A stretch of DNA of 64,000 nucleotides from an uncultured Armatimonadota bacterium (GCA_903910385.1 CAIVZM010000053.1:1-64000); one strand, 5' to 3'; positions 4,483-64,000 are shown, numbered from the stretch's first letter. A program made the numbers and translations. Notes: generated by a model from the letters alone, not told the origin.

Positions 4483-4622
4483 TTTCTTGTACTTGCGCTC
4501 TGCCGGGAAAATTCCCGGCGAGTCCAAATCCCGCCCTTCGATTCCGAGCGACTGATTCCCAATCGAATGTTGAACGTTGTTTGGAGCGAAGGATTCCCCC
4601 TCTTGACTACGACAGACTGATA

Positions 4623-4650
4623 TTGCCACGCCTAATCTGAACTTTACGAT
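4623..4650 (+). promoter_or_regulatory. Possible sigma70 promoter for RNase H gene
   Basis: TTGCCA at 4623-4628 and TACGAT at 4645-4650 are separated by 16 bases. The -10 ends 11 bases before the GTG start, so the leader would be only a few bases long. Confidence 0.4.
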
Positions 4651-4661
4651 AGACCAAACCT

Positions 4662-5093
4662 GTGCCCATAAAAATTATTCTTCATAGCGATGGCGCCGCT
4701 AAAGGCAATCCCGGTCCTGCAGGGGTTGGAGTCGCTCTATACCATTCAGGCGAATCAGAGCCTTTCGCTACTTTCGCCGAGTATATCGGCGAGACGACCA
4801 ATAATGTCGCAGAGTACCGGGGTTTGCTTCTGGGGTTGCATGAGGCTCTCTTGCGTGGCGCCGATGAGATAGAGGCGCGAACCGACAGCGAATTGATGGC
4901 GCGTCAGATCGAGGGACGATATCAGGTCAAATCGCCGGATCTTATTACGCTGTATGAGGAAGCGAAACGACTTCTGTCTCGTTTCGACAAAGCGAAAATC
5001 GTTCATATCCCCCGTGCTCAGAATAGCCTCGCTGACAAACTTGCCAATCAGGGCGTCGCCGCACGGCCTAAAGCGATTCCGAAAAGCGGTTAA
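4662..5093 (+). CDS. rnhA: Ribonuclease H type I-like protein
   Basis: A 143-residue RNase H fold enzyme that cleaves RNA in RNA-DNA hybrids in the cytoplasm. The four acidic catalytic residues are all present: Asp10 (SDGAAKGNPG), Glu51 (NNVAEYRG), Asp75 (TDSEL) and Asp125 (SLADKLAN). The TTNNVAEYRGLL form and lack of the basic protrusion place it with the RnhA-like/YpdQ-type group rather than the E. coli archetype. The start is GTG. The gene converges on the FG-GAP lipoprotein gene and the two stop codons share the palindrome TTAA. Confidence 0.85.
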   Translation: MPIKIILHSDGAAKGNPGPAGVGVALYHSGESEPFATFAEYIGETTNNVAEYRGLLLGLHEALLRGADEIEARTDSELMARQIEGRYQVKSPDLITLYEEAKRLLSRFDKAKIVHIPRAQNSLADKLANQGVAARPKAIPKSG

Positions 5094-6799
5094 CGCTTTC
5101 CTGATGGCTCCTGAATTTTCAGGTAACGATTTCGATCTACAATTTCTACGGAGGACGTTGATCCAGAGGGCCACAGGACGTTTACCTTAACGATTGGATG
5201 ATTTGCGGGAATGCCAAAAAGCGTTCTCGAATCGCACACTGAGAGGTAGCTACGGCAGGTAGTGGCGCAACGTGTCTGTTTGTAACTGCCTGACTCAAGA
5301 GTGATCATCGCTCCCGAACCATCGCGTGGGCTTTTTGATCCGACCAGTTGTATACCGATCCAATCGTTGTTTGACGGCGTATTATTATGGTAGAGATGTA
5401 CCGGACCGCCGTTCTCGAATACCAGAAGATCTACCTTACCATCGTTGTCATAATCGCCGAAAGCCAATCCCCTGCCGACAATCGAAGTCGTAAGTCCGGT
5501 ATCTGAATGCAAGCGAAACGTTCCGTTACCCTCATTCTGAAACAACTGTACCGGTTGACGGTATACGATACGAGCGCCTCCGGTTGACATCGACTGATCA
5601 TCGTCGATATGCCCATTCGCTGCGAGGATATCCGGATAGCCATCGTTGTCTACATCCGCGAAGACCAGTCCGAAGGTGGTCATAACGCGAGTCGGGGCGG
5701 CGACCCCGCTCTGTTGTTGCAGATTATCGAACAGAGTCAAGCCTGCGGTTCCCTGTTGAGAGACAAACAGGCTCATTTGCTGACCGGCGAATACCCCGAC
5801 TGCAAGAGTAATGCGGTCATCCCCGAAAGCGGTAGCGGCGTCTGCTCCCATACTTCCAGTAGGATTGCCATCGGCGCCGACGGCAATACCCGACTCGAGC
5901 GCTTTATCACGAAAGATCCCGTCTTTGTTGTTCAACAGGAGAACATCCGGTTCGGTATCGTTGGCGAGGTAGAGGTCCAGAAATCCATCATGGTTGAAAT
6001 CGAACGGGACGATAGCAAGCGTCTTGCTCCGATGCCCCAGAACGCCAGCTTCACGGGAAACATCATCAAAGGTTCCGTCACGATTCTGGCGCAGGAGAAC
6101 GGGGGGAGCGCCTTTATACTCGTAAGGAGCGCAGTACTGCCTGGCATTTGCCGGACCGCAGGCAAGGTCTGTTTCCGGTGACCACTCTACATACCGGGCG
6201 ACAAAAAGGTCCAGAAGACCGTCGTGGTCGAAATCACCCCAGACCGCCGCTGTTGTGAATCCCTTGACGTCCGTTTTGGTCTTTGCCGAGACATCGGTGA
6301 ATTTTCCGCCCTCGTTGTGAAAAAGGTGCGTTTTCCCGACCGCTGTGACAAAAATATCGGGACGATTATCGTTGTCATAATCGGCGACCGCAGCGCCGAT
6401 TCCATAGAAGGGAGGAATATCGCCTAACCCGCTGGCGCCGGTGACATCCGAAAAGGTTCCATCGCCGTTGTTCCGATACAGCGCAAGATGTGGAATTGAC
6501 CCCTTATAACCGGGAAGCGGTCCTCCGTTGATCAGGAGAATGTCCAGATTCCCGTCGCCGTCATAATCAAGAAAGCCTCCGCCGCCTCCCACCGTTTCCG
6601 GCAGATACTTCTTCCCCGTACGGCAGGGATTATGAGTCCAATTCAATCCCGCTTTCTTCGTTACATCCTCAAAGCGAGGAATCATCATTGAAACTTGCGT
6701 CGTTGGGGCAGGTCGTGAAGCATTCTGTTTCTCTGATGGCGTGCAACCAGCAACGGATACCAGCACAAACAGCGCGACAATGGAATAGGAGCGAATCAT
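5090..6799 (-). CDS. CRTAC1-type FG-GAP/ASPIC lipoprotein
   Basis: A 569-residue lipoprotein (Cys19 after VSVAG) of the CRTAC1/UnbV family. It holds at least six FG-GAP/VCBS calcium-binding loops of the form D-x-D-x-D-G-x-x-D-(I/L) such as DYDGDGNLDILL and DVDNDGYPDILA, forming a beta propeller, and ends in an ASPIC/UnbV domain (about residues 480-560, motif VLWPSG). Proteins of this family are extracytoplasmic and of unclear function. Two Cys pairs lie in the ASPIC part (CATTC and VCD). Its ATG overlaps the stop of the TPR lipoprotein gene by four bases, so the two are translationally coupled; CRTAC1-TPR pairs are a common neighbourhood in environmental bacteria. Confidence 0.88.
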   Translation of the reverse strand: MIRSYSIVALFVLVSVAGCTPSEKQNASRPAPTTQVSMMIPRFEDVTKKAGLNWTHNPCRTGKKYLPETVGGGGGFLDYDGDGNLDILLINGGPLPGYKGSIPHLALYRNNGDGTFSDVTGASGLGDIPPFYGIGAAVADYDNDNRPDIFVTAVGKTHLFHNEGGKFTDVSAKTKTDVKGFTTAAVWGDFDHDGLLDLFVARYVEWSPETDLACGPANARQYCAPYEYKGAPPVLLRQNRDGTFDDVSREAGVLGHRSKTLAIVPFDFNHDGFLDLYLANDTEPDVLLLNNKDGIFRDKALESGIAVGADGNPTGSMGADAATAFGDDRITLAVGVFAGQQMSLFVSQQGTAGLTLFDNLQQQSGVAAPTRVMTTFGLVFADVDNDGYPDILAANGHIDDDQSMSTGGARIVYRQPVQLFQNEGNGTFRLHSDTGLTTSIVGRGLAFGDYDNDGKVDLLVFENGGPVHLYHNNTPSNNDWIGIQLVGSKSPRDGSGAMITLESGSYKQTRCATTCRSYLSVCDSRTLFGIPANHPIVKVNVLWPSGSTSSVEIVDRNRYLKIQEPSGKR

Positions 6800-10999: not shown

Positions 11000-11662
11000 T
11001 TACCCGGTAGGAGGCGGTGAGACGTAAAGCGGCGTCAGGGTATCTGCATTATCTGTCGCACCGTTTTCGAAACGATGAAATGCGATCTCCGCAATTCTCG
11101 ACGCCGACGGGAACGCATCGACAGGGAGAATGTCCTGCTTGAATTCTGTGGAAGAAAGAACAACCGACGCCCCCTCCCCCATCAGAAAGATCGGATTTTC
11201 ACCGAACATCTGACGCGCTTTCGGCACGATCTCGTTGTCCTGCATGACTACAGGAGGTTCCAGCGATGACATCGCGCCTGCCGGGTAGAAGGCGGCGATA
11301 GAGATCAGGCGTCGCGTTGGAGCAATTGCGATCCGAGGTCTCGAAAGAACTGCGGGATTCAGGGCGATAGCATCCAGTGAGGAAATGCCAACAATCGCTT
11401 TATCGGTGGCGAAGGCGAAGGTTTTCGCCGTTGTCACCCCGATTCGCACCCCGGTGAATGATCCCGGACCCAGCCCGACCGCGAACCCTTCGATATCTCT
11501 TAAAGTATGACCGGAATCGCGCAGAACGAAGGAAATTATGTCTGGCAGACGCTCGGTCAATCGTCGAAAATGACGGAAATTATACTCCATCAACGGAGAA
11601 TTGCCCCGCGAGATGGCGACGGAGCATACTTCTCCGGAAGTGTCGAGCGCCAGAATTAACAT
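11000..11662 (-). CDS. tsaB: tRNA threonylcarbamoyladenosine protein TsaB
   Basis: A 220-residue ASKHA-fold protein of the TsaB/YeaZ family, a partner of TsaD and TsaE in making the t6A modification of tRNAs that read ANN codons. Typical marks are the N-terminal LALDTSGEVCSVA, the motif GLGPGSFTGVRIGVTTAK, and SSLDAIA. Length is normal. It overlaps tsaE by seven bases on the same strand, so both are translated from one message. TsaD and TsaC are not in the window. A ribosomal acetyltransferase RimI, often next in this cluster, is absent. Confidence 0.92.
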   Translation of the reverse strand: MLILALDTSGEVCSVAISRGNSPLMEYNFRHFRRLTERLPDIISFVLRDSGHTLRDIEGFAVGLGPGSFTGVRIGVTTAKTFAFATDKAIVGISSLDAIALNPAVLSRPRIAIAPTRRLISIAAFYPAGAMSSLEPPVVMQDNEIVPKARQMFGENPIFLMGEGASVVLSSTEFKQDILPVDAFPSASRIAEIAFHRFENGATDNADTLTPLYVSPPPTG

Positions 11663-12147
11663 GAATCAGGATGCTCCAACCATTGTTTGACTAAGGCTAA
11701 CCAGCGACTTCCACGAGCCGTGATAGTGATCCGTCGTGATTCTCCCGGCGGATTGATTTCTTCCAACGCTAATTCCAGACGGTTTAGCGGTAATATCTCC
11801 TCGATTCGTTCTGACCATTCGAGCATCACAACGCCATCATTTCGGAAAAAATAATCTTCGATTCCCGTCCCGACAGCATCATCCGCCCCACGCAAACGGT
11901 AGGCATCGACGTGATAGATCGGCAATCGCCCGCCTTGATATTCATGTATCAGCGTAAAAGTGGGGGAAGAAACCGGGGAAGTAGCTCCGAGTGCGGCAGT
12001 AAGGTAGCGGGTAAAGGTTGTCTTCCCCGCCCCAAGATCTCCCTTCAGACAAAGCGTATCGCCGGGAAGAAGGAAAGTTGCCAAACGTTCGGCGAGTTGC
12101 CGAGTTTCCTGTTCGTCCGCCACTACTCTTGTCAGGGAATCCATCAT
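11656..12147 (-). CDS. tsaE: tRNA threonylcarbamoyladenosine ATPase TsaE
   Basis: A 163-residue P-loop ATPase that drives the TsaB-TsaD-TsaE cycle of t6A synthesis. Walker A is GDLGAGKTTFTRYL, followed by SPTFTLIHEY and the family motif IYHVDAYRL; EWSER near residue 125 matches the conserved WxE region. Either of two adjacent ATG codons (12147, 12144) could start it. A TATAAA/TAAAAT stretch ends only a few bases before the ATG, so the leader may be extremely short. It precedes and overlaps tsaB. Confidence 0.93.
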   Translation of the reverse strand: MMDSLTRVVADEQETRQLAERLATFLLPGDTLCLKGDLGAGKTTFTRYLTAALGATSPVSSPTFTLIHEYQGGRLPIYHVDAYRLRGADDAVGTGIEDYFFRNDGVVMLEWSERIEEILPLNRLELALEEINPPGESRRITITARGSRWLALVKQWLEHPDSC

Positions 12148-12212
12148 GGGATTTTATACCATTGTCCGTAAAGACGCGCCTGTTCCGGGAACCAGCGGAT
12201 TCGGTATGCCGT

Positions 12213-12242
12213 TTGACATCAAAGAATCGAAAAGGATACAAT
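12213..12242 (+). promoter_or_regulatory. Sigma70 promoter for citrate synthase
   Basis: TTGACA at 12213-12218 and TACAAT at 12237-12242 with an 18-base spacer, leaving a leader of about 85 bases before the AGGAGG ribosome site and ATG at 12334. Confidence 0.75.
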
Positions 12243-12333
12243 ACCGGCGCGAAGGTTGCTCGAACCCTACTCGCTCCCACGTTAATATTATGCTGATAAT
12301 TATAAATGAATTTCTTTTTCAGGAGGATGCCCT

Positions 12334-13509
12334 ATGAGTGAGGCGATTGCTGGCGAAACGAAACCGATGCCGACAGTTTCCCGCGGTCTGGAGGGCGTCG
12401 TCGCGGCCGCAACGCACATTGCGGAGGTTGATGGCGAGCATGGCAAACTCACCCTTCAGGGCTATGACGTTAGCCAACTCTCCGGAAATGTAACTTTCGA
12501 AGAGGTCTGCTTTCTGCTGTGGCATGGCAAGCTACCCAATGTTCAGGAACTCGAAACGCTTAGAGCGGAAATGGCCGCCGCGCGACGATTACCAGAATCT
12601 GTTCTTACAGCCCTTCGGACGCTTGCCCCGCATGCCGGAGGAATGGATATCTTGCGTATCGGCGCTTCAATGCTGTCCGTTGGCGATGAGACTCTGAACT
12701 CTCTGGACTTGAACGAATGTCGACAGCGAGCCGCGCGACTTCAGGCGCAGATGCCCGCTCTGGTCGCTCACGCTTACCGACTGGGAGAAGGCAAAGAAAT
12801 CGTCGAGCCGAAACCGGAACATGGACTTGCGGCGGGATTCCTTTACATGCTCGAAGGCAAAGAGCCCGATCCTGCCCGTGTCGCCGGTCTGGACGCCTAC
12901 CTCGTGGCGGTATCGGAACATGGACTGAACGCTTCCACCTTTGCAGCGCGTGTCATTATCGCAACCGACTCCGATATGGTTTCCGCTTTGACCGGCGCTA
13001 TTGGCGCGTTGAAAGGCTCTAAGCATGGCGGAGTGCCCGGTCCAGTTCTGAAGATGCTGGAAGAAATCAAGACACCGGAAAACGCCGAGGCGTTCATCCG
13101 CAACGAGATTACCTCCGGTCGCCGCATCATGGGATTCGGTCATCGTATCTACAAGGTGCGTGACCCGCGAGCGGCTCTTCTGAGCGACGCTGCCGAAAAG
13201 ATGGCATCGCTCACTGGTGATTACCATTTACTGCGGTTGGCGCAAGCAGTGGAATCCACCACTGTCAAAACGCTGGCGGAACTGAAGCCCGGTCGTGATC
13301 TCTATGCCAACGTCGAATTGTTCGCCGCGCTCATTCTCCATGCGGTCGATGTGCCGTCCGAAATATTCACCCCTGTCTTCGCCGTGGGGCGCACTTCAGG
13401 ATGGACCGCGCACATGATCGAACAGATCGAGGAAGGTCGGTTGATCCGTCCTCAGTCTGTCTATATCGGACCGCGTGATCGAACATTTGTCCCTCTGAAC
13501 GAGCGATAA
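12334..13509 (+). CDS. gltA: Citrate synthase (or 2-methylcitrate synthase)
   Basis: A 391-residue type II-like citrate synthase condensing acetyl-CoA and oxaloacetate at the entry to the TCA cycle. AGGAGG precedes the ATG at 12334. His196 (EHGLNASTF) and His231 (SKHGGVPGP) are the catalytic histidines, and GFGHRIYKVRDPRA carries the oxaloacetate-binding His and Arg. The C-terminal motif reads YANVELF, so a Glu occupies the position where many homologues have the catalytic Asp of NVDFY. This variant occurs in some paralogues as far as I recall, so a methylcitrate or minor citrate synthase is possible. A promoter and a terminator bracket it as a single-gene transcript. Confidence 0.88.
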   Translation: MSEAIAGETKPMPTVSRGLEGVVAAATHIAEVDGEHGKLTLQGYDVSQLSGNVTFEEVCFLLWHGKLPNVQELETLRAEMAAARRLPESVLTALRTLAPHAGGMDILRIGASMLSVGDETLNSLDLNECRQRAARLQAQMPALVAHAYRLGEGKEIVEPKPEHGLAAGFLYMLEGKEPDPARVAGLDAYLVAVSEHGLNASTFAARVIIATDSDMVSALTGAIGALKGSKHGGVPGPVLKMLEEIKTPENAEAFIRNEITSGRRIMGFGHRIYKVRDPRAALLSDAAEKMASLTGDYHLLRLAQAVESTTVKTLAELKPGRDLYANVELFAALILHAVDVPSEIFTPVFAVGRTSGWTAHMIEQIEEGRLIRPQSVYIGPRDRTFVPLNER

Positions 13510-13536
13510 TTGGACTGTCGTCCCTGAAAATCAGGC

Positions 13537-13571
13537 AAAAGCCGGAGGCATCGCTTCCGGCTTTTATTTTT
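13537..13571 (+). terminator. Intrinsic terminator after citrate synthase
   Basis: AAAAGCCGGA (13537-13546) pairs with TCCGGCTTTT (13556-13565) around a nine-base loop, followed by A and five T's. Confidence 0.85.
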
Positions 13572-13704
13572 CTCAATATCTGTAATTCCCGGTTCTCGTA
13601 TACCACAAACAAATTCCAAGAGGGTAGAATTTACCGGGAATTTCGACTGATCCGTGCATCCTGCGACGAAATCCACCCCACACGTTACCAGAAGGAATCG
13701 ATTG

Positions 13705-15375
13705 ATGGCGACTAATAAAAATGGCAACGATAATGTATCTCCGCTGGCGGGACAGCTAGCCCCAGCTGAGATGCTCATGGATATCTCCCGGATCGAACGG
13801 GCTTATTTTGACGAGCGACCGGATGTTGAGGATTCCGCTCAGCAAGTGAGTTTCGGCACCAGCGGCCATCGTGGGTCATCACTGCGTTGTTCCTTCAACG
13901 AAGGGCATATTCTGGCGATATCTCAGGCGATCTGTGACTACCGACGCAGTCAGGGAGTCGATGGCCCCCTTTATATGGGCAAAGACACCCATGCGCTCTC
14001 TGGCCCGGCGCAGAATACCGCTCTTGAAGTCCTCGCCGCCAACGAGGTGGACGTATTCATACAGAAAGACGATGGCTTCACTCCTACTCCGGTCATATCA
14101 CGGGAGATACTGGCATATAATCGCCAACGAACTGATCATCTGGCGGATGGGATCGTCATCACTCCTTCTCATAACCCTCCGCAAGACGGTGGTTTCAAAT
14201 ATAACCCTACCAACGGCGGCCCGGCGGATACGGTAGTGACCAAGTGGGTGCAAGATCGTGCGAACGCTTATCTGAGGAATGGAAACAAAGAAGTCAAACG
14301 CGTGAACATAGCGACGGCGATGAAAGCGCCAACGACGCATCTGGAAGATTATGTGTTGCCCTTTGTCAACGATTTACGCAATGTCATTGATATGGAAGCG
14401 ATTCGGAATGCTGGTCTGAAGCTGGGCGTCGACCCGTTAGGCGGGGCGTCCATCGACTATTGGGAACCGATCAATTCCCTTTACAATCTGGATATCGCTA
14501 TTGTTAACCCGAAGATCGATCCGACCTTCTCCTTCATGACACTAGACCATGATGGCGTCATTCGCATGGACTGTTCAAGCCCTTATGCGATGGCTAGCCT
14601 GGTTAATCTTAAAGATAGGTTTCAGGTGGCGTTTGCAAATGACCCCGATGCGGATCGGCATGGTATTGTCACACCTTCTGCAGGATTGATGAATCCTAAC
14701 CACTATCTTGCTGTCGCTATCGGCTACCTTTTGACTCACAGACCGGACTGGAGTCCGACGGCAGCAATCGGTAAAACGTTGGTCAGTAGCAGTATGATCG
14801 ACCGTGTCGTTCATCATCTGGGGCGACGGTTATCGGAAGTGCCCGTAGGGTTTAAATGGTTCGCGCCCGGTCTGTTCGATGGAACTTGCTGTTTTGGCGG
14901 CGAAGAAAGCGCCGGCGCCAGTTTCCTGCGTCGTGATGGCTCTGTCTGGACGACGGATAAAGATGGAATCATCATGAACTTGCTGGCGGCGGAGATCACT
15001 GCCACTACCAGCAAAGACCCCGGCGTTCATTATTCAGAGCTGACGGCACAATTCGGAGCGCCACGATACACCAGAATCGATGCCGCCGCCAGCCCGGAAC
15101 AAAAGGCGCGTTTATCGAATCTCTCTCCAGATGCGATTAAGGAATCGACTCTGGCAGGAGAACAAATAACCGCTAAACTAACCCGAGCGCCAGGCAACGA
15201 CGCTTCCATAGGCGGATTGAAGGTAGTTACCGAGAACGGGTGGTTTGCGGCGCGACCTTCCGGTACAGAAAATATCTATAAGATTTATGCCGAAAGCTTT
15301 CGAGATGAGAATCACCTGAACCGCATCGTCGAGGAAGCTAAAGAAATCGTCGACATCGCACTGCAAGCATCTTGA
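13705..15375 (+). CDS. pgm: Phosphoglucomutase (alpha-D-glucose)
   Basis: A 556-residue phosphohexomutase interconverting glucose-1-phosphate and glucose-6-phosphate. The ATG at 13705 follows AGAAGGA at 8 bases; the frame opens at 13654 but that stretch is not typical. Motifs in order: FGTSGHRGS near the N terminus, the active-site phosphoserine loop [12 protein letters not shown], the metal loop [10 protein letters not shown], the sugar loop GEESAGASF, and the phosphate-binding C-terminal [15 protein letters not shown]. All are intact. Cytoplasmic. A TAGAAT element at 13625-13630 upstream may be its -10. Confidence 0.95.
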
Positions 15376-56841: not shown

Positions 56842-57055
56842 TTGAAGCTTTTAACCCCTTCTAACGATGAAATCCGGGGGCGATACTCGTTCGCTCTCCC
56901 GGTTACGGATAAGAAACACTTCTTTCAATAGCGCCGTTCCACAATGTCGTAAATTTCGATAGGCAAACTTGTGTTGCAATTTACTGATTTCAATGGTTGG
57001 CTTGTAGAGAGGTTTTGTCTTGATCCTGAAAGGGGAAAGAAGGACGTTAATTTCT

Positions 57056-58231
57056 ATGGCGAATCATCTACATCAGTCGTTTCTTGACTTTACGTTTGTC
57101 ACTCCTCCTCGACTCATTTTTGGTTGGTCGGCAGCCACCGATGGTCGTCTGGCAATTGAAGCAAAGCGATTCGGAAAACGCCCCCTGCTCTTCTCAGGCA
57201 AGACTCTACGCGATAATGGGACTCTTGCCTTGATTCTGGCAAGCTTTCAGAGCTCAGGCATTCCCGCAACGACCTATGAAGGCATACCGCCTGAGCCTAC
57301 CGTCCGTGATCTTCAGGATGCTATGGAAGGAGTGCGTAAGTCCGGGGCGGATATGGTGATTGCCATTGGCGGTGGTAGCGTTCTCGATATTGCTAAGGCG
57401 GCAGCGGCGCTTGCACAGACCGAAAGTCTAACGGCAGCGGATTACTTCGCTGCCCGAGCATCGGTGCCGGATTCTGGTGGATTACCGATCATCGCAGTCC
57501 CTACTACCTCAGGAACAGGTAGTGAAGCCACATGGGTTTCCGTTCTAGTCGATGACTCGGGCGAGGGACAACCCCGAAAGGCAAGCATTCGAGGCGGCGC
57601 GATGATGCCGGTCATGGCTTTGCTGGATGCGCAGCTGACCGTTACCTGCCCTCCTACCGTTACCGCATATTCAGGAATGGACGCTTTTGTACAGGCAGTG
57701 GAGGCGTTCACGTCGAAAGGCGCGAATCCTTTCACGGATGCATTGGCGTTTGAAGCGGCGCTGCTAACCGCTAACAACCTGCGTACCGCGTTCGCTGAAC
57801 CCTCGAACCAGTCAGTGCGAGAAGCGATGATTCTGGGGAGTTATATGGCGGGGGTGGCATTGAATACCAGTCGTCTGGGGTTGGTTCACGGGCTCGCTCA
57901 CCCAATCGGGGCGATAACCGGAGCCGCGCATGGTCTCCTGTGTGGGCTGCTCATGCCTGCTGTCATGCGATTCAATCAGGACGCCGCCCGAAAGAAATAC
58001 GAACGTCTCGCTACTACACTCGGCATCCCTGACGGATCAGAAGGCTTGATTGCATTCACGGAACGACTGCTGCGAGATATCAAGATTCCGACACACCTTT
58101 CCGAAATCGGTTTAAAAGAAGAGGATATCGCTTATATCGCACGGGAATCGCTCCCTTCAGGCAGTACGAAAGCTAATCCTCGCCCAGTAAGTGAATCAGA
58201 CGCCTACTCCGTCACCATGGATTGCTTTTAA
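57056..58231 (+). CDS. Iron-containing alcohol dehydrogenase
   Basis: A 391-residue group III alcohol dehydrogenase. The ATG at 57056 follows AGAAGGAC; a TTG at 57020 is possible. The NAD(P)-binding GGGSVLDIAKAAAALA motif, the signature PTTSGTGSEATWVSV and the metal-binding HGLAHPIGAITGAAHGLLCGL are present. It oxidises an alcohol or reduces an aldehyde; substrate unknown. It stands alone. Confidence 0.93.
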   Translation: MANHLHQSFLDFTFVTPPRLIFGWSAATDGRLAIEAKRFGKRPLLFSGKTLRDNGTLALILASFQSSGIPATTYEGIPPEPTVRDLQDAMEGVRKSGADMVIAIGGGSVLDIAKAAAALAQTESLTAADYFAARASVPDSGGLPIIAVPTTSGTGSEATWVSVLVDDSGEGQPRKASIRGGAMMPVMALLDAQLTVTCPPTVTAYSGMDAFVQAVEAFTSKGANPFTDALAFEAALLTANNLRTAFAEPSNQSVREAMILGSYMAGVALNTSRLGLVHGLAHPIGAITGAAHGLLCGLLMPAVMRFNQDAARKKYERLATTLGIPDGSEGLIAFTERLLRDIKIPTHLSEIGLKEEDIAYIARESLPSGSTKANPRPVSESDAYSVTMDCF

Positions 58232-58566: not shown

Positions 58567-60240
58567 ATGCTACGCAATAGTAAGACGGCGGGAATCCTGG
58601 GGATTTTTGGGCTGCTTATTTTCTTAACAGGTTGCCGTGATAGCTCCCCGGTCGCCGATTCGGAGATTACTGGAGCTACCCCGGCAAACCCTACCGTTCA
58701 AATTGCTACGAAAGGGACGCTGAGAATCGTTTCCGGTTCAGAAAGCAAGACATTAGCGCCCATTGTAGAGCGCTGGGGGCGCGAAAATAACGTCGCGGTA
58801 GAGATGGAATACAAGGGGTCGGTAGACATTATGCTTGCCCTACAAAACCCTGAGCCTTTTCCTTACGATGCTGTGTGGCCTGCTAACTCACTATGGATAG
58901 CGCTCGGCGATAACCAGAAACGCATTAAAGACGAGCAAAGTATTCTCTGGTCACCTGTCGCCCTCGGCGTAAAAAAATCTATTGCGCAAAAACTGGGTTG
59001 GGTTGGGAAACCCGTCAAAGTCGAGGATATTCTGAAGGCGGCGGAGAACGGCAGCTTCAAGTTCATGATGACTTCCGCGACGCAATCAAATTCGGGCGCG
59101 TCCGCCTATCTGGGATTCCTCTACGCTTTCGCCGGATCACCGCAGGCATTATCCGCCGCCGATCTACAGAAGCCAGAGGTTGAGTCGAAAATCAAGCGGA
59201 TTCTGGGTTCGGTCGACCGTTCGGCAGGCAGTTCCGGTTGGCTGAAAGATTTGTTCATTCAAAAGTATGCCATTTATGATGCAATGTTCAACTACGAAGC
59301 GGTCTTGATCGAAACGAATCAGGAGCTTCTCAAAGAAGGCAGAGAACCTCTCTATCTGATTTATCCTTCCGATGGTCTTGCGCTTGCCGATTCTCCGCTT
59401 GCGTTTGTCGACAACGGAAGCAGTGAAAGAGCGACAAAGCGTGAACTTGTGCAAAGCCTACAAAAGTACCTGCTCTCAGATGCGGTGCAGAAGGAAATTC
59501 TGGCGCAGGGGCGACGAATCGGGCCCGTCGGCGACAAAATCACCGGGATGGATATGACGGTATTCAATCCCGATTGGGGCATCAAAAACGACGCCTTCCT
59601 GAATCAGATACGCTATCCTAAAGCGGATGTCATTCGTCAGGCGTTAAACCTGTATCAGAGCGCATTTCGTAAGCCGTCGCTCACCATCTATTGCCTCGAT
59701 TACTCTGGAAGTATGAAAGGCGAACGGATCGAATCCTTGAAAGCGGCGATGAAACGTATTCTTGATCAGACTGAAGCGAAGAAATCTTTTTTACAGGCAT
59801 CCGCCAGAGATGTGACCATCGTCATTCCCTTCTCCAACCGAATTCTCGATGAGTGGACGGTGGAGGGAAACGACCCGACAGCGCTCGAAGAAATCTATCA
59901 AAAGATCGACAATCTCCAGCCCGATGGCGGCACCGACATCTATTCACCGACTCTACGCGCCCTGGAAATCTTGAATCAGAAATCCGCTAAGTCCGGAGAG
60001 TTCTTTCCTGCCGTCATTTTGCTGACGGATGGTGAATCGAACACGGGCAGGACTATCGACGATCTGCGGTCTGCTTATCAATCGGGTGACTTCGGCGAGA
60101 ACGCGCCCGTATTCGGCATCCAGTTCGGCGAAGCCTCTCAAAGTCAATTAAAGGCGGTTTCCGAGCTAACTTCGGGCAGAACGTTTGACGGTCGCAAAGA
60201 CCTGACCACCGCGTTTCGTGACGCTAAAGGTTACAATTAG
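58567..60240 (+). CDS. Substrate-binding and vWA domain lipoprotein
   Basis: A 557-residue lipoprotein with lipobox L-T-G-C and Cys23. Residues 45-360 form a periplasmic substrate-binding fold of the extracellular solute-binding (SBP_bac_11-like) type, with the SNSGASAY loop typical of such proteins. Residues 370-555 are a von Willebrand A domain with a full MIDAS: DYSGSMKG (from Asp378), GGTD and LLTDGESN. The fused family is known in databases, but its function is not. It is the first gene of a three-gene operon with an XpaC-like membrane protein and a second substrate-binding-like protein. Confidence 0.85.
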   Translation: MLRNSKTAGILGIFGLLIFLTGCRDSSPVADSEITGATPANPTVQIATKGTLRIVSGSESKTLAPIVERWGRENNVAVEMEYKGSVDIMLALQNPEPFPYDAVWPANSLWIALGDNQKRIKDEQSILWSPVALGVKKSIAQKLGWVGKPVKVEDILKAAENGSFKFMMTSATQSNSGASAYLGFLYAFAGSPQALSAADLQKPEVESKIKRILGSVDRSAGSSGWLKDLFIQKYAIYDAMFNYEAVLIETNQELLKEGREPLYLIYPSDGLALADSPLAFVDNGSSERATKRELVQSLQKYLLSDAVQKEILAQGRRIGPVGDKITGMDMTVFNPDWGIKNDAFLNQIRYPKADVIRQALNLYQSAFRKPSLTIYCLDYSGSMKGERIESLKAAMKRILDQTEAKKSFLQASARDVTIVIPFSNRILDEWTVEGNDPTALEEIYQKIDNLQPDGGTDIYSPTLRALEILNQKSAKSGEFFPAVILLTDGESNTGRTIDDLRSAYQSGDFGENAPVFGIQFGEASQSQLKAVSELTSGRTFDGRKDLTTAFRDAKGYN

Positions 60241-60244
60241 CCTG

Positions 60245-60862
60245 ATGATGAGGAATAGCGGTTCTACCGGGGTTAGTCCTGGCGCGAGCGATATTGTACC
60301 GGGCGTAGTGGCCGCCGTTTGCTTTCTCGTTATCACTTTTGGTCTTCACTTCCCGCTTTTGGTAGGAGGACTCCTGTCAGCAGGAGTCTATTTTGGATTG
60401 CGATTGCTGATGCCTTCCTCCGCTATCGAAGCTTTCTCAAAGAGCGATGATCTGGAAAGCGTTGTCGCCAGAACCGTCAAGGAATCCGAAAGCCTTACGC
60501 CATTGCTACGTGAAAAGGCGGTGGAAGTCTGCAATGTCGCCAGTAACCTGCTTCATATTGCAAAGACAAGCGAGACAAGGGCGACAGATATCCATTTTGC
60601 CGTCGCAGAGTATATGAATGTGGTGCGTCAGGGTATTGGACTTTATCAGGATCGATCGGCGGCGACCACCTCCGGTCCGCAGTCTCGCGCTGCACTGGAA
60701 CAAATGCTCGATAGCGTTTATCAACGCCTGGACGCACTGCACGACAGTATTGTGCATGAGGATGATTCGAAGACGGCAAGAGAAATGGACACTTTGAACC
60801 GAACCGTGAAAGATATGGATGACGTTTTAATTCGGGTACAGAGGAATGGAGAGAGCGAATGA
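60245..60862 (+). CDS. XpaC-like membrane protein
   Basis: A 205-residue protein with two N-terminal transmembrane helices (about 19-34 and 36-55) and a long helical cytoplasmic part. The layout and the helical end resemble the XpaC (5-bromo-4-chloroindolyl phosphate hydrolysis) family, which usually neighbours TelA-type toxic-anion-resistance genes. I make this link from layout, not a clear motif. Start is ATG 60245 with a weak upstream AAAGG. It lies four bases after the vWA lipoprotein's stop and overlaps the next gene by four bases (ATGA). No TelA homologue is in the window. Confidence 0.6.
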   Translation: MMRNSGSTGVSPGASDIVPGVVAAVCFLVITFGLHFPLLVGGLLSAGVYFGLRLLMPSSAIEAFSKSDDLESVVARTVKESESLTPLLREKAVEVCNVASNLLHIAKTSETRATDIHFAVAEYMNVVRQGIGLYQDRSAATTSGPQSRAALEQMLDSVYQRLDALHDSIVHEDDSKTAREMDTLNRTVKDMDDVLIRVQRNGESE

Positions 60863-61995
60863 AGCGATTTGGCGGATTATTGATCCTTTTAGCGGTTATT
60901 GCAATCGCTACTATCTTTTATCTGCGCCAGCGAAACGTCAGTAACGTTCCCGGACAGGGCGCAGAATCCCCGGCGATGGTCACCGCCGCCACTGGCTCCG
61001 GCGCGAACGATAGTATCATCCATCTCAAGGGGCTGATCGGCGGAGAAAAGACGGGACTTCTCAAAGACCCTGAAGTGATCAAAATACTTCGGGAAAAGTA
61101 CCATCTCGAAGTGGATTCAGATAAACGTGGTTCTCTTGCTATGGTGCAGGAAGATCAACCTGCTGACCGGGATTTCCTCTGGCCTTCGTCGCAGGTCGCT
61201 CTGGACATCTATCGGGAATCGAAGAAGCCGATGGTACGTTCGGAAATCCTGTTGAACTCCCCTATCGTCCTGTACTCCTGGGAATCGGTCACTGAAGCGC
61301 TTCTTCGCAAAGGAATCGTCCAGAAGAAAAACAATACCTATTACGTGGTGGATTTTGCCCGACTCGTTCAGTCTATCAATAAGGGCGTTACCTGGAAGGA
61401 TATGGGGCTTCCTCAGCTTTATGGACGTGTGATTGTCTATTCCACTGATCCTACCCAGAGCAACTCCGGAAATATGTTTGCCGGACTGATCGCTAATACC
61501 TTGAATAATGGCAATGTCGCCACGGAAGACTCACTCCAGCAATCTTTGCCTTCGCTCAAGAAATTTTTCGATGATCAGGGATACATGGATTCCAGTTCCG
61601 AAACGATTTTCCGTCAATTTCTGGCGAAGGGTATCGGTGACAAACCGTTGATTGTCGGCTATGAATCCCAGATCATCGAATATGGCATCGATTCGGCATC
61701 CGACCCCAAAATGGAATCGCGAAAGAAGGAAGTTCGCCTTCTTTACCCGCAACCGACTGTTTGGAGCAGTCATCCCCTGATTGCGTTGACCGACAATGGC
61801 GCAAAACTCATTGACGCCCTTCAGGACCCACAAATCCAGCAACTCGCTTGGACGAAACACGGCTTTCGATCCGCAGTCGGCGCGGACAACAATGTAAAAT
61901 CCCTCAGCGTGACGGGAATACCGTCCGTCATTGAAAATGTCATACCGATGCCCCGCTCGAAAGTGATGGAAAAGATACTGGAAGGTTTGAAATAA
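60859..61995 (+). CDS. Membrane-anchored substrate-binding-like protein
   Basis: A 378-residue protein with an N-terminal transmembrane anchor (about 5-22) and one substrate-binding fold related to the N-terminal domain of the lipoprotein two genes upstream: both share a TQSNSG loop, a DxxWP-type segment and a comparable C-terminal ending (LxDALQDPQIQQL). It lacks the vWA domain. Its ATG overlaps the XpaC-like stop by four bases, so the three products are made together and may form a cell-surface assembly. Ligand unknown. Confidence 0.78.
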   Translation: MKRFGGLLILLAVIAIATIFYLRQRNVSNVPGQGAESPAMVTAATGSGANDSIIHLKGLIGGEKTGLLKDPEVIKILREKYHLEVDSDKRGSLAMVQEDQPADRDFLWPSSQVALDIYRESKKPMVRSEILLNSPIVLYSWESVTEALLRKGIVQKKNNTYYVVDFARLVQSINKGVTWKDMGLPQLYGRVIVYSTDPTQSNSGNMFAGLIANTLNNGNVATEDSLQQSLPSLKKFFDDQGYMDSSSETIFRQFLAKGIGDKPLIVGYESQIIEYGIDSASDPKMESRKKEVRLLYPQPTVWSSHPLIALTDNGAKLIDALQDPQIQQLAWTKHGFRSAVGADNNVKSLSVTGIPSVIENVIPMPRSKVMEKILEGLK

Positions 61996-62202
61996 TTTCC
62001 TGTATTGTGAACTGAAGGTGAACATAAGCATCTGATGTTCACCGTCAGATCGTCACGATTGAACTGAAACCCTTACCGCTTGATTTCGTTATACAATTTC
62101 GTGTGAGGGGAATCCGACAGTAACTATCCTGCGGGTTCTCTCGCAGGACGTTGATAATCCGTGCGCTATTTTGAAAAACAAACAAGGACAAACTGTACAG
62201 AT

Positions 62203-63078
62203 ATGAGTGACCAATTGCTTGCTGACGCTGCTGCGTCGGGAACGTTCACCATCGGCGGCGATTTGACCGTGAACCGACTCGGTTACGGTGGGATGCGACT
62301 GACGGGAGAAGGCATCTGGGGAGAACCAAAAAATCCGGATGAGGCGAAGCGCGTCCTCCGACGACTCGCTGATTTAAATGTCAACTTTATCGATACGGCG
62401 GACTCCTACGGTCCGCATGTCAATGAGACCATGATCGGAGAGACGCTGGCGCCCTACACGGCGGGAATGGTTATCGCCACTAAAGGCGGCCTTCTGAGAA
62501 CTGGTCCGAATCAGTGGCCGATTCTGGGACATCCGGAGTATATTCGGCAGTGCATTGAACTGAGTCTGCGCCGCTTAAAGACAGACGTGATCGACCTCTG
62601 GCAACTGCACCGCATCGATCCGAACGTTCCCGTTGAGGAAACTCTCGGACCGGTGAAGGAAGCGCAGGAAGCCGGAAAAATCCGCCATGTCGGGTTGTCG
62701 GAAGTCAGCGTCGAGGAGATCGAGCGGGCGTCGAAGACGGTGAAAATCGTCAGCGTGCAGAATCTCTACAATATCGCCAATCGACAGTCCGAAGCGGCGC
62801 TGGACTACTGCGAGAAGAACGATATCGCGTTTATTCCGTGGTTTCCCGTTGCGGCGGGCGACCTTGCTCGACCCGGCGGCCCTCTTGATTCCGCCGCGAA
62901 GCGTCACGGTGCAACCGTCGCACAGTTAGCCCTTGCCTGGCTCCTGCATCGCTCCCCGGTCATGCTCCCGATTCCGGGCACCTCCTCAGTAGCCCATCTC
63001 GAAGAAAACGTCGCCGCCGCCTCCCTAAAATTAGACGAAGCAGAATGGGTAACGCTGGAAGCGGAAATCAAAGCTTAA
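62203..63078 (+). CDS. Aldo/keto reductase
   Basis: A 291-residue NAD(P)H-dependent aldo/keto reductase. The TIM-barrel shows the tetrad residues in FIDTADSYGPHVNE (Asp, Tyr), VIATKGG (Lys) and LWQLHRIDP (His), and the cofactor end PGTSSVAHLEENVAA. Start is taken at ATG 62203 after AAGGACAA; GTG at 62161 is an alternative with no better site. Length is slightly short but complete. Substrate unknown. Confidence 0.9.
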   Translation: MSDQLLADAAASGTFTIGGDLTVNRLGYGGMRLTGEGIWGEPKNPDEAKRVLRRLADLNVNFIDTADSYGPHVNETMIGETLAPYTAGMVIATKGGLLRTGPNQWPILGHPEYIRQCIELSLRRLKTDVIDLWQLHRIDPNVPVEETLGPVKEAQEAGKIRHVGLSEVSVEEIERASKTVKIVSVQNLYNIANRQSEAALDYCEKNDIAFIPWFPVAAGDLARPGGPLDSAAKRHGATVAQLALAWLLHRSPVMLPIPGTSSVAHLEENVAAASLKLDEAEWVTLEAEIKA

Positions 63079-63217: not shown

Positions 63218-64000
63218 CTATTTAAGCGGGGATGTCCAGAAATTGGCTATTTTTCGACAGGCGATCCCGATGCCAGTGAGCATTGTTCCTATGAGCATCA
63301 ACATCAGAGTTGCAGGTTCCGGCGCCGTGGTAGTGATACTGCCTGTCACGAGGACCGTGAAGTTGTGTATGACGGTGTTACTGATGCCGTTAGTAGTGTA
63401 GGAAATCGATGCTGTGCCTCCATACTCTCCCGGCGCAACGGACTTCGACACATTCACCGCGAAAAAAGACTGCCCCAAAATGGCGGACGACGGGATGCTG
63501 CCGTTGTTGTTGAGATACGAATCGAAGGGCGATGAGTCTATGGTCAGACCATCCAATACGTTGTCGAACGAGAAATTATAGCCGTCTATTACCGTTTCGG
63601 CAGGACCATTATTTAACACGCCGTCGAAAAGCGCTGGTGAAGTTCCCGCACTAACGCTTTGGATCGGTTTGTTGAAGGTGAAACCGAAATCTGCTGTTTG
63701 GGTTTGTGTCACTATCAGTGAGAAATTCTGAACAGCGGTGTTGCTGATGCCATTCGTCGTGTAGGAGATTGTTGCTGTGCCGCCATATTCTCCCGGTACA
63801 GCGGCCCCGGACACATTCACCGTGAATAAAGACTGCCCGAAACTGGAAGACGGTGCAATACTGTCGTTGTTGTTGAGATACGATTCGAATAGCGATGAGT
63901 CTATCGTCAGACCATCCGATGCGCCGTCAAACGAGAAACTATAGCCGTCTATCATCGTTTCAGTAGAGCCGTTATCTAATACCGCGTCGAAAGTAAGAGA
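63218..64000 (-). CDS. PEP-CTERM repeat protein, 5-prime truncated
   Basis: The frame runs to the right edge of the window without a start, so the N terminus is missing. At least 260 residues remain. Two beta-rich repeats of 121 residues (period 363 bases; DGYxFSFD, GLTIDSS, YLNNN, PGEYGGTAxISYTTNGISNT) are followed by a PEP-CTERM sorting tail: APEPATLMLMLIGTMLTGIGIACRKI. Such tails direct exosortase-dependent surface display, so this is a surface or matrix protein. The exosortase gene is not in the window. Confidence 0.85.
   Translation of the reverse strand, partial: SLTFDAVLDNGSTETMIDGYSFSFDGASDGLTIDSSLFESYLNNNDSIAPSSSFGQSLFTVNVSGAAVPGEYGGTATISYTTNGISNTAVQNFSLIVTQTQTADFGFTFNKPIQSVSAGTSPALFDGVLNNGPAETVIDGYNFSFDNVLDGLTIDSSPFDSYLNNNGSIPSSAILGQSFFAVNVSKSVAPGEYGGTASISYTTNGISNTVIHNFTVLVTGSITTTAPEPATLMLMLIGTMLTGIGIACRKIANFWTSPLK
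63355..64000 (-). repeat. 121-residue tandem repeats in PEP-CTERM gene
   Basis: The DNA between about 63355 and 63717 recurs from about 63718 to the window edge with high identity (for example the ACCATCC block at 63548 reappears at 63911, 363 bases later). More copies are likely beyond the edge. Confidence 0.75.

Follow-up and report, generated by a model that had tools for sequence, protein, structure and literature searches.

The three coupled genes described here, g1, g2 and g3, form a real and widespread cassette whose recurrence exceeds chance and extends over at least ten bacterial phyla. They occupy positions 58567-61995 on the + strand of the window, as we call the whole stretch of 64,000 nucleotides of DNA from an uncultured Armatimonadota bacterium that was analysed. 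We somewhat favour the view that this operon is a TelA-less form of a widespread XpaC-based envelope-stress cassette, in which paired extracytoplasmic receptors would signal by way of XpaC, TelA being a cytoplasmic partner that is not obligatory.

Organization of the operon

The genes follow each other in the order g1, g2, g3. Spacing between g1 and g2 is 4 bases (CCTG), g2 starting with the ATG at 60245, and g2 and g3 overlap by 4 bases (ATGA), exactly as the first-pass annotation of this DNA had it. The features are the following:

58567..60240, +, g1: lipoprotein with a type II solute-binding domain and a C-terminal vWA domain, 557 aa, ATG start (Pfam SBP_bac_11 7.5e-15, VWA 1.5e-8; AlphaFold2)
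58567..58635, +, g1 signal peptide and lipobox LTGC, Cys23 (sequence; Cys23 invariant in 10 homologues, other phyla included)
58714..59673, +, g1 receptor domain, about residues 50-369, predicted type II periplasmic-binding fold (VIA match to 1sbp)
59080..59097, +, g1 TQSNSG loop, residues 172-177, start of a cleft helix (sequence, alignment, model)
59674..60237, +, g1 vWA domain, residues 370-557, MIDAS D378-S380-S382, T456, D488 (alignment; VIA)
60245..60862, +, g2: XpaC-family protein, two membrane helices and a cytoplasmic helical tail, 205 aa (homologues' PF10112 matches; hhalign; profile match)
60293..60400, +, g2 membrane hairpin, helices at residues 17-33 and 36-52 (hydropathy; positive-inside count, 44 homologues)
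60859..61995, +, g3: membrane-anchored protein of predicted type II periplasmic-binding fold, 378 aa, no Pfam family (AlphaFold2; VIA; hhalign to g1)
60874..60924, +, g3 N-terminal signal anchor, residues 6-22 (hydropathy)
61453..61470, +, g3 TQSNSG loop, residues 199-204, start of the matching cleft helix (sequence, alignment, model)

An iron-type alcohol dehydrogenase (57020-58231) precedes g1, with 335 bases between them, and an aldo/keto reductase (62161-63078) follows g3. Promoter and terminator scans of the operon gave counts no higher than in shuffled sequences, and a search of a defence-system library returned no matches. At the edge of the window, 63218-64000 on the - strand encodes a repetitive exported protein that runs off the end; a motif at its C-terminus resembles PEP-CTERM (E 0.002, slightly short of the cut-off).

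Distribution of the cassette

The cassette was followed through g3. A family-wide g3 alignment was too divergent for scanning the genome collection, and a narrower g3 alignment, which worked, identified 80 loci in 84,980 species genomes. Counting was done on the 71 loci with enough upstream flanking sequence; since g3 is present in them by construction, the figures give the frequency of g1 and g2 given g3, with g1 found in 67 of the 71 and g1 and g2 both in 64. The order g1-g2-g3 was found in six other genomes of the window's phylum and also in loci from Bacillota, Spirochaetota, Thermodesulfobacteriota, Pseudomonadota, Planctomycetota, Verrucomicrobiota, Acidobacteriota, Chloroflexota and Thermomicrobiota. 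It is this recurrence, in six further genomes of the phylum and dozens of loci elsewhere, that sets the trio apart from a chance arrangement, and the frequency of g1 and g2 beside g3 makes the second receptor a regular part of the cassette, not catalogued so far, in almost all phyla covered. A survey of gene neighbourhoods had been proposed in the first-pass annotation, whose reading would have been undermined by homologues that never co-occur; the three-gene order proved to be conserved.

Some variation in gene content and order was observed. A permuted order, g3-TelA-g1-g2, was present in betaproteobacteria and Nonomuraea, and Deinococcus taeanensis had g3-g1-g2, without TelA in the stretch examined. 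Three loci (L074, L089, L113) lacked g2 between g1 and g3, and in another (L076, 6562-7987) a tandem pair of XpaC-family genes was located there. A metagenome bin titled Borreliella garinii (L142) carried all four genes of the cassette; its species name is probably mistaken. In three genomes of one genus of the window's phylum a divergent g3 was found alone. Homologues of g3 with neither g1 nor g2 nearby (L020, L021, L022 and also L135-L137) had an N-terminal extension of about 50 residues and TNLG replacing SNSG, features that suggest a changed ligand or role. Around 4660-4800 of L024, in genome G009, all that was detected of g3 was its C-terminal end, in an open frame of 49 residues, likely a decayed copy, G009 being congeneric with the cassette-bearing G008.

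Across the 80 loci, no conserved gene outside the cassette pointed to a pathway, and no permease or transport ATPase was a constant neighbour, so that the composition of an ABC uptake transporter was not found. Four loci (L084, L111, L127 and L061) had flotillin-type genes no more than a few kilobases away from the cassette.

Two related receptors, one of them fused to a vWA domain

The description of g1 as a lipoprotein with receptor and vWA domains was borne out by its LTGC lipobox and by Pfam matches above the cut-off for both domains. In some proteobacterial members an uncleaved anchor takes the place of the lipobox. The AlphaFold2 model of g1 (mean pLDDT 91.0, pTM 0.88) places the receptor domain closest, among solved structures, to the sulfate-binding protein 1sbp (VIA Z 26.1, rmsd 3.4, 284 residues aligned), and its vWA part matches the vWA structure 4fx5 (Z 22.5, rmsd 1.9, 171 residues). 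This part of g1 has the predicted Rossmann-like fold and the complete MIDAS (DxSxS...T...D) of the vWA family (PF00092); the five MIDAS residues are invariant in 48 g1 homologues, and the fusion is kept throughout the g1 homologues aligned.

With g3 alone, no family was matched in Pfam or NCBIfam, and 58 of 59 members of the g3 family gave no Pfam match; g3 thus represents a widespread family still missing from Pfam. Its AlphaFold2 model (mean pLDDT 91.8) had 2qry as the best solved match (VIA Z 23.7, rmsd 2.7, 270 residues), and the g3 family profile aligned with the g1 receptor domain over nearly its full length (hhalign probability 97.7%, E 1.6e-12), a comparison by which the two receptor domains are homologous. 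Foldseek and VIA on these confident models assigned both to the two-lobe type II periplasmic-binding fold, which is therefore predicted with high confidence for g3 and for the g1 receptor domain. These results, with a single N-terminal anchor, agree with the earlier description of g3 as a membrane-anchored receptor-like domain, and the structural unrelatedness that would have spoken against it was not encountered. The predicted fold shared with binding proteins does not in itself prove their function, and the matches of g1 and g3 are equally to binding proteins for iron, sulfate, molybdate and sugar phosphates.

In type II binding proteins the ligand sits at the N-termini of helices lining the cleft. 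Alignments and models of g1 and g3 showed that positions which are invariant, or kept in 90% or more of the sequences, lie at the N-terminal ends of four helices that correspond between the two receptors: G57-S58-E59 in g1 and G61-x-E63-K64 in g3 at the first site, G84-S85 and G91-S92 at the second, S174-N175-S176-G177 and S201-N202-S203-G204 at the third, and Y243-E244 and Y268-E269 at the fourth. The third of these accounts for the TQSNSG resemblance noticed at the outset, which was indeed found in both receptors. Because the conserved residues coincide with the ligand-holding positions of such proteins, we infer that both receptors still bind something, and g1 and g3 may be regarded as putative ligand-binding proteins.

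A local duplication as the origin of the second receptor was considered and rejected, since g3 forms its own cross-phylum family alongside g1. The "duplicated receptor domain" of the first-pass annotation therefore holds as far as there are two homologous receptors, and has to be given up as regards duplication in this lineage, g3 being a regular component of the cassette.

g2 as a divergent relative of XpaC

Neither the g2 protein of the window nor a search of its own genome gave a match to the Pfam model of XpaC (PF10112), and for that reason naming g2 by direct Pfam match was discarded in favour of transitive evidence. In an alignment of 56 g2 proteins, the one from the window included, 46 match PF10112 (best E 9.4e-41). 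The seven Armatimonadota proteins aligned with 23 members from other phyla with an hhalign probability of 99.6% (E 6e-24), and an HMM built on those 23 out-of-phylum members matched the g2 of the window at E 3.2e-16, the best unrelated ORF of the window reaching 0.69. We accordingly place g2 by transitive homology as a divergent relative of the XpaC family, not as a curated PF10112 member, and the XpaC-like character proposed earlier, for which a lack of similarity to XpaC profiles would have been fatal, can be retained.

Two hydrophobic segments followed by a soluble tail, as first described, were identified in the g2 of the window, and two such segments are present in 44 of the 56 homologues. 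In these 44, the mean number of K+R was 1.84 before, 0.30 between and 2.45 after the helices, from which the N-terminus and the tail are predicted to be cytoplasmic. This corresponds to the architecture of XpaC, with an N-terminal membrane hairpin and a cytoplasmic helical tail.

Presence and absence of TelA

TelA (PF05816) adjoins the cassette in 39 of the 71 loci, and all 20 TelA neighbours that were scanned match PF05816. Adjacent TelA was found in 11 of 13 loci of Bacillota, 11 of 11 of Spirochaetota, 12 of 14 of Thermodesulfobacteriota and 5 of 18 of Pseudomonadota, and in none of the few loci from Armatimonadota, Planctomycetota, Verrucomicrobiota, Acidobacteriota, Chloroflexota and Thermomicrobiota. 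One TelA-bearing locus is that of Sporolactobacillus shoreae (L073). The lack of TelA noticed beside the operon extends to the window's whole genome (assembly 95% complete), where the combination of TelA and XpaC is thus not found, and a search of 291 genomes belonging to the phylum gave no TelA match over the cut-off. The missing TelA is therefore a lineage trait, common to the rest of the phylum and to several other lineages. Adjacency of TelA changed at least eight times on a g3 tree built by a quick method.

Another 14 genomes carrying the cassette without adjacent TelA comprised six without any TelA and eight with TelA elsewhere. In the six of these eight that were examined (L157 to L161 in full, and L162), TelA follows a second XpaC gene. 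These loci, from Alphaproteobacteria, Thiothrix and a gammaproteobacterium, constitute a separate XpaC-TelA locus that coexists with the g1-g2-g3 cassette; in L161, Pfam identified an SPFH-domain protein and a zinc-ribbon-like protein after XpaC-TelA. Actibacterium mucosum, for example, has both g1-g2-g3 and a separate XpaC-TelA locus.

A gene replacing TelA after g3 was sought in the TelA-less loci and none was found, save for one weak case in an Acidobacteriota cassette, a coiled-coil gene directly after g3 (L069, 9166-10002) with PspA-like features (PF04012 E 3.6e-5, below the cut-off). A single 701-residue frame joining g3 and TelA (L106, 7995-10100) was left out of the analysis, the C-terminus of g3 being lost and no second membrane helix being evident; it may be a real fusion and is likely a frameshift in a metagenome assembly.

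Proposed function and alternative explanations

Previous reports have placed the xpaC-yaaN (TelA) pair of Bacillus subtilis in the core sigma-W regulon (PMC3498285), and a study of the CesSR envelope-stress regulator of Lactococcus lactis listed an XpaC-like protein and telA1 among the induced genes (PMC3139573). In Listeria, a bacteriocin induces lmo1966-1967 and a telA mutant is sensitive to nisin (PMC12791056), and XpaC has been linked to defensin and daptomycin responses (PMC7864038). A stress role of the cassette would be carried over by analogy from these published data on XpaC-TelA pairs, which were described without g1 and g3.

The envelope-stress reading builds on the observed gene order, XpaC kinship, conserved sites and absence of TelA, together with folds and membrane attachment that are confidently predicted. 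The three proteins would form a complex, with the receptor-vWA protein g1 and the anchored g3 positioned on the outer side of a membrane, and the probable ligand of either receptor would be a small molecule or an envelope component that has been damaged. Upon a change in receptor shape, the metal-dependent vWA domain of g1 would probably clamp a partner protein, and the g2 hairpin, spanning the membrane, would pass the change to its cytoplasmic helical tail. In most lineages this tail would recruit or organise TelA; here it would act without TelA or with another partner. PspA-like and SPFH (Band 7) genes exist elsewhere in the window's own genome, not tied to the operon, and their products could be partners of it. 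The surface sensory or assembly complex put forward in the first-pass annotation may likewise be correct, and stays a suggestion.

The assembly side of that suggestion deserves separate consideration, as the vWA MIDAS and the receptor domains might bind extracellular polymers or surface proteins in an adhesion complex that XpaC merely anchors or positions. The invariant MIDAS residues of g1, the proximity of its vWA domain to inter-alpha-inhibitor and bacterial vWA structures, and the membrane attachment of all three proteins are in line with this. We consider it unlikely, as conserved residues occupy the small-ligand positions of the receptor clefts, the commonest fourth gene is TelA, a cytoplasmic stress protein, and genes for cell walls, pili or S-layers were not recurrent neighbours of the cassette in the 80 loci surveyed. 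We would give still less credence to a module capturing oxyanions or metals (sulfate, phosphate, molybdate, tellurite or ferric ion) that feeds or regulates uptake or detoxification. Its appeal lies in the nearest folds, those of sulfate-, ferric- and molybdate-binding proteins, in the annotation of TelA as toxic anion resistance, in a PstS-like OmpA fusion near other cassettes, and in the one cassette, from Sphaerotilus, that has a PhoX phosphatase gene 4 bases upstream and an extracellular nuclease gene downstream; such phosphate-related neighbours are rare, however, and a constant permease or transport ATPase is missing. The same absence, with the three-gene order conserved regardless, the XpaC kinship of g2 and the persistence of the vWA fusion, makes it highly improbable that g1 and g3 are conventional receptors of ABC transporters whose genes happen to flank a small, unrelated membrane gene, as the SBP_bac_11 domain of g1 could have indicated. 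In the Sphaerotilus locus (L058), the phosphatase and the ExeM/NucH nuclease lie at 4563-6485 and 11448-14312, a possible phosphate link.

An extended form of the envelope-stress reading, which we put forward tentatively and with some doubt, is that of an envelope receptor complex, shared across phyla, whose two diverged receptors of binding-protein type, one bearing a vWA clamp with MIDAS, would pass their signal through XpaC; on this view the lineages lacking TelA show that XpaC and not TelA is the core output. If true, this complex would provide the first input to be defined for XpaC. Regulons responding to antimicrobial peptides or envelope stress repeatedly contain XpaC and TelA, and a conserved set of partners with predicted receptor folds and conserved clefts makes the question of the input testable. 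It will be of interest to explore which ligand g1 and g3 recognise and whether XpaC relays its binding; lineages devoid of TelA offer a natural separation of the role of XpaC from that of TelA.

Relationship to known systems

XpaC, TelA and proteins with substrate-binding and vWA domains have each been catalogued already. An earlier account of the full receptor-bearing cassette was not found in the literature searched, which did not include the 2012 survey of Ter/TelA systems, and the cassette is apparently undescribed, its precedence being uncertain. The xpaC-yaaN operon of Bacillus, Listeria and Lactococcus, associated with the sigma-W and CesSR envelope-stress regulons, resembles it in the XpaC-family g2 and in TelA, the fourth cassette gene in many lineages, and differs in having been described without two extracytoplasmic receptors, whereas the window's genome has no TelA. 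Public records of a "substrate-binding and VWA domain-containing protein" share the architecture of g1 (a Variovorax example is about 30% identical) and carry no assigned function, as the first-pass annotation had stated; for more distant members in Streptomyces and Miltoncostaea, no g3 partner was detected nearby. For Ter/TelA stress systems, TelA and a vWA protein have been proposed to form sub-membrane structures, according to the summary of Anantharaman et al. (2012) in PMC7824862. Here TelA, the sole Ter component searched for, is absent, and the vWA domain is predicted to be extracytoplasmic and is fused to a receptor, unlike TerF of Ter systems. The type II periplasmic-binding proteins, among them sulfate-binding Sbp, ferric-binding FbpA/FutA, ModA and 6lkg, the binding protein of a two-component system, have the fold predicted for g3 and the g1 receptor (Z about 20-26) with 6-17% identity; in contrast to them, g1 and g3 have no transporter partner, are membrane-anchored and occur as a pair.
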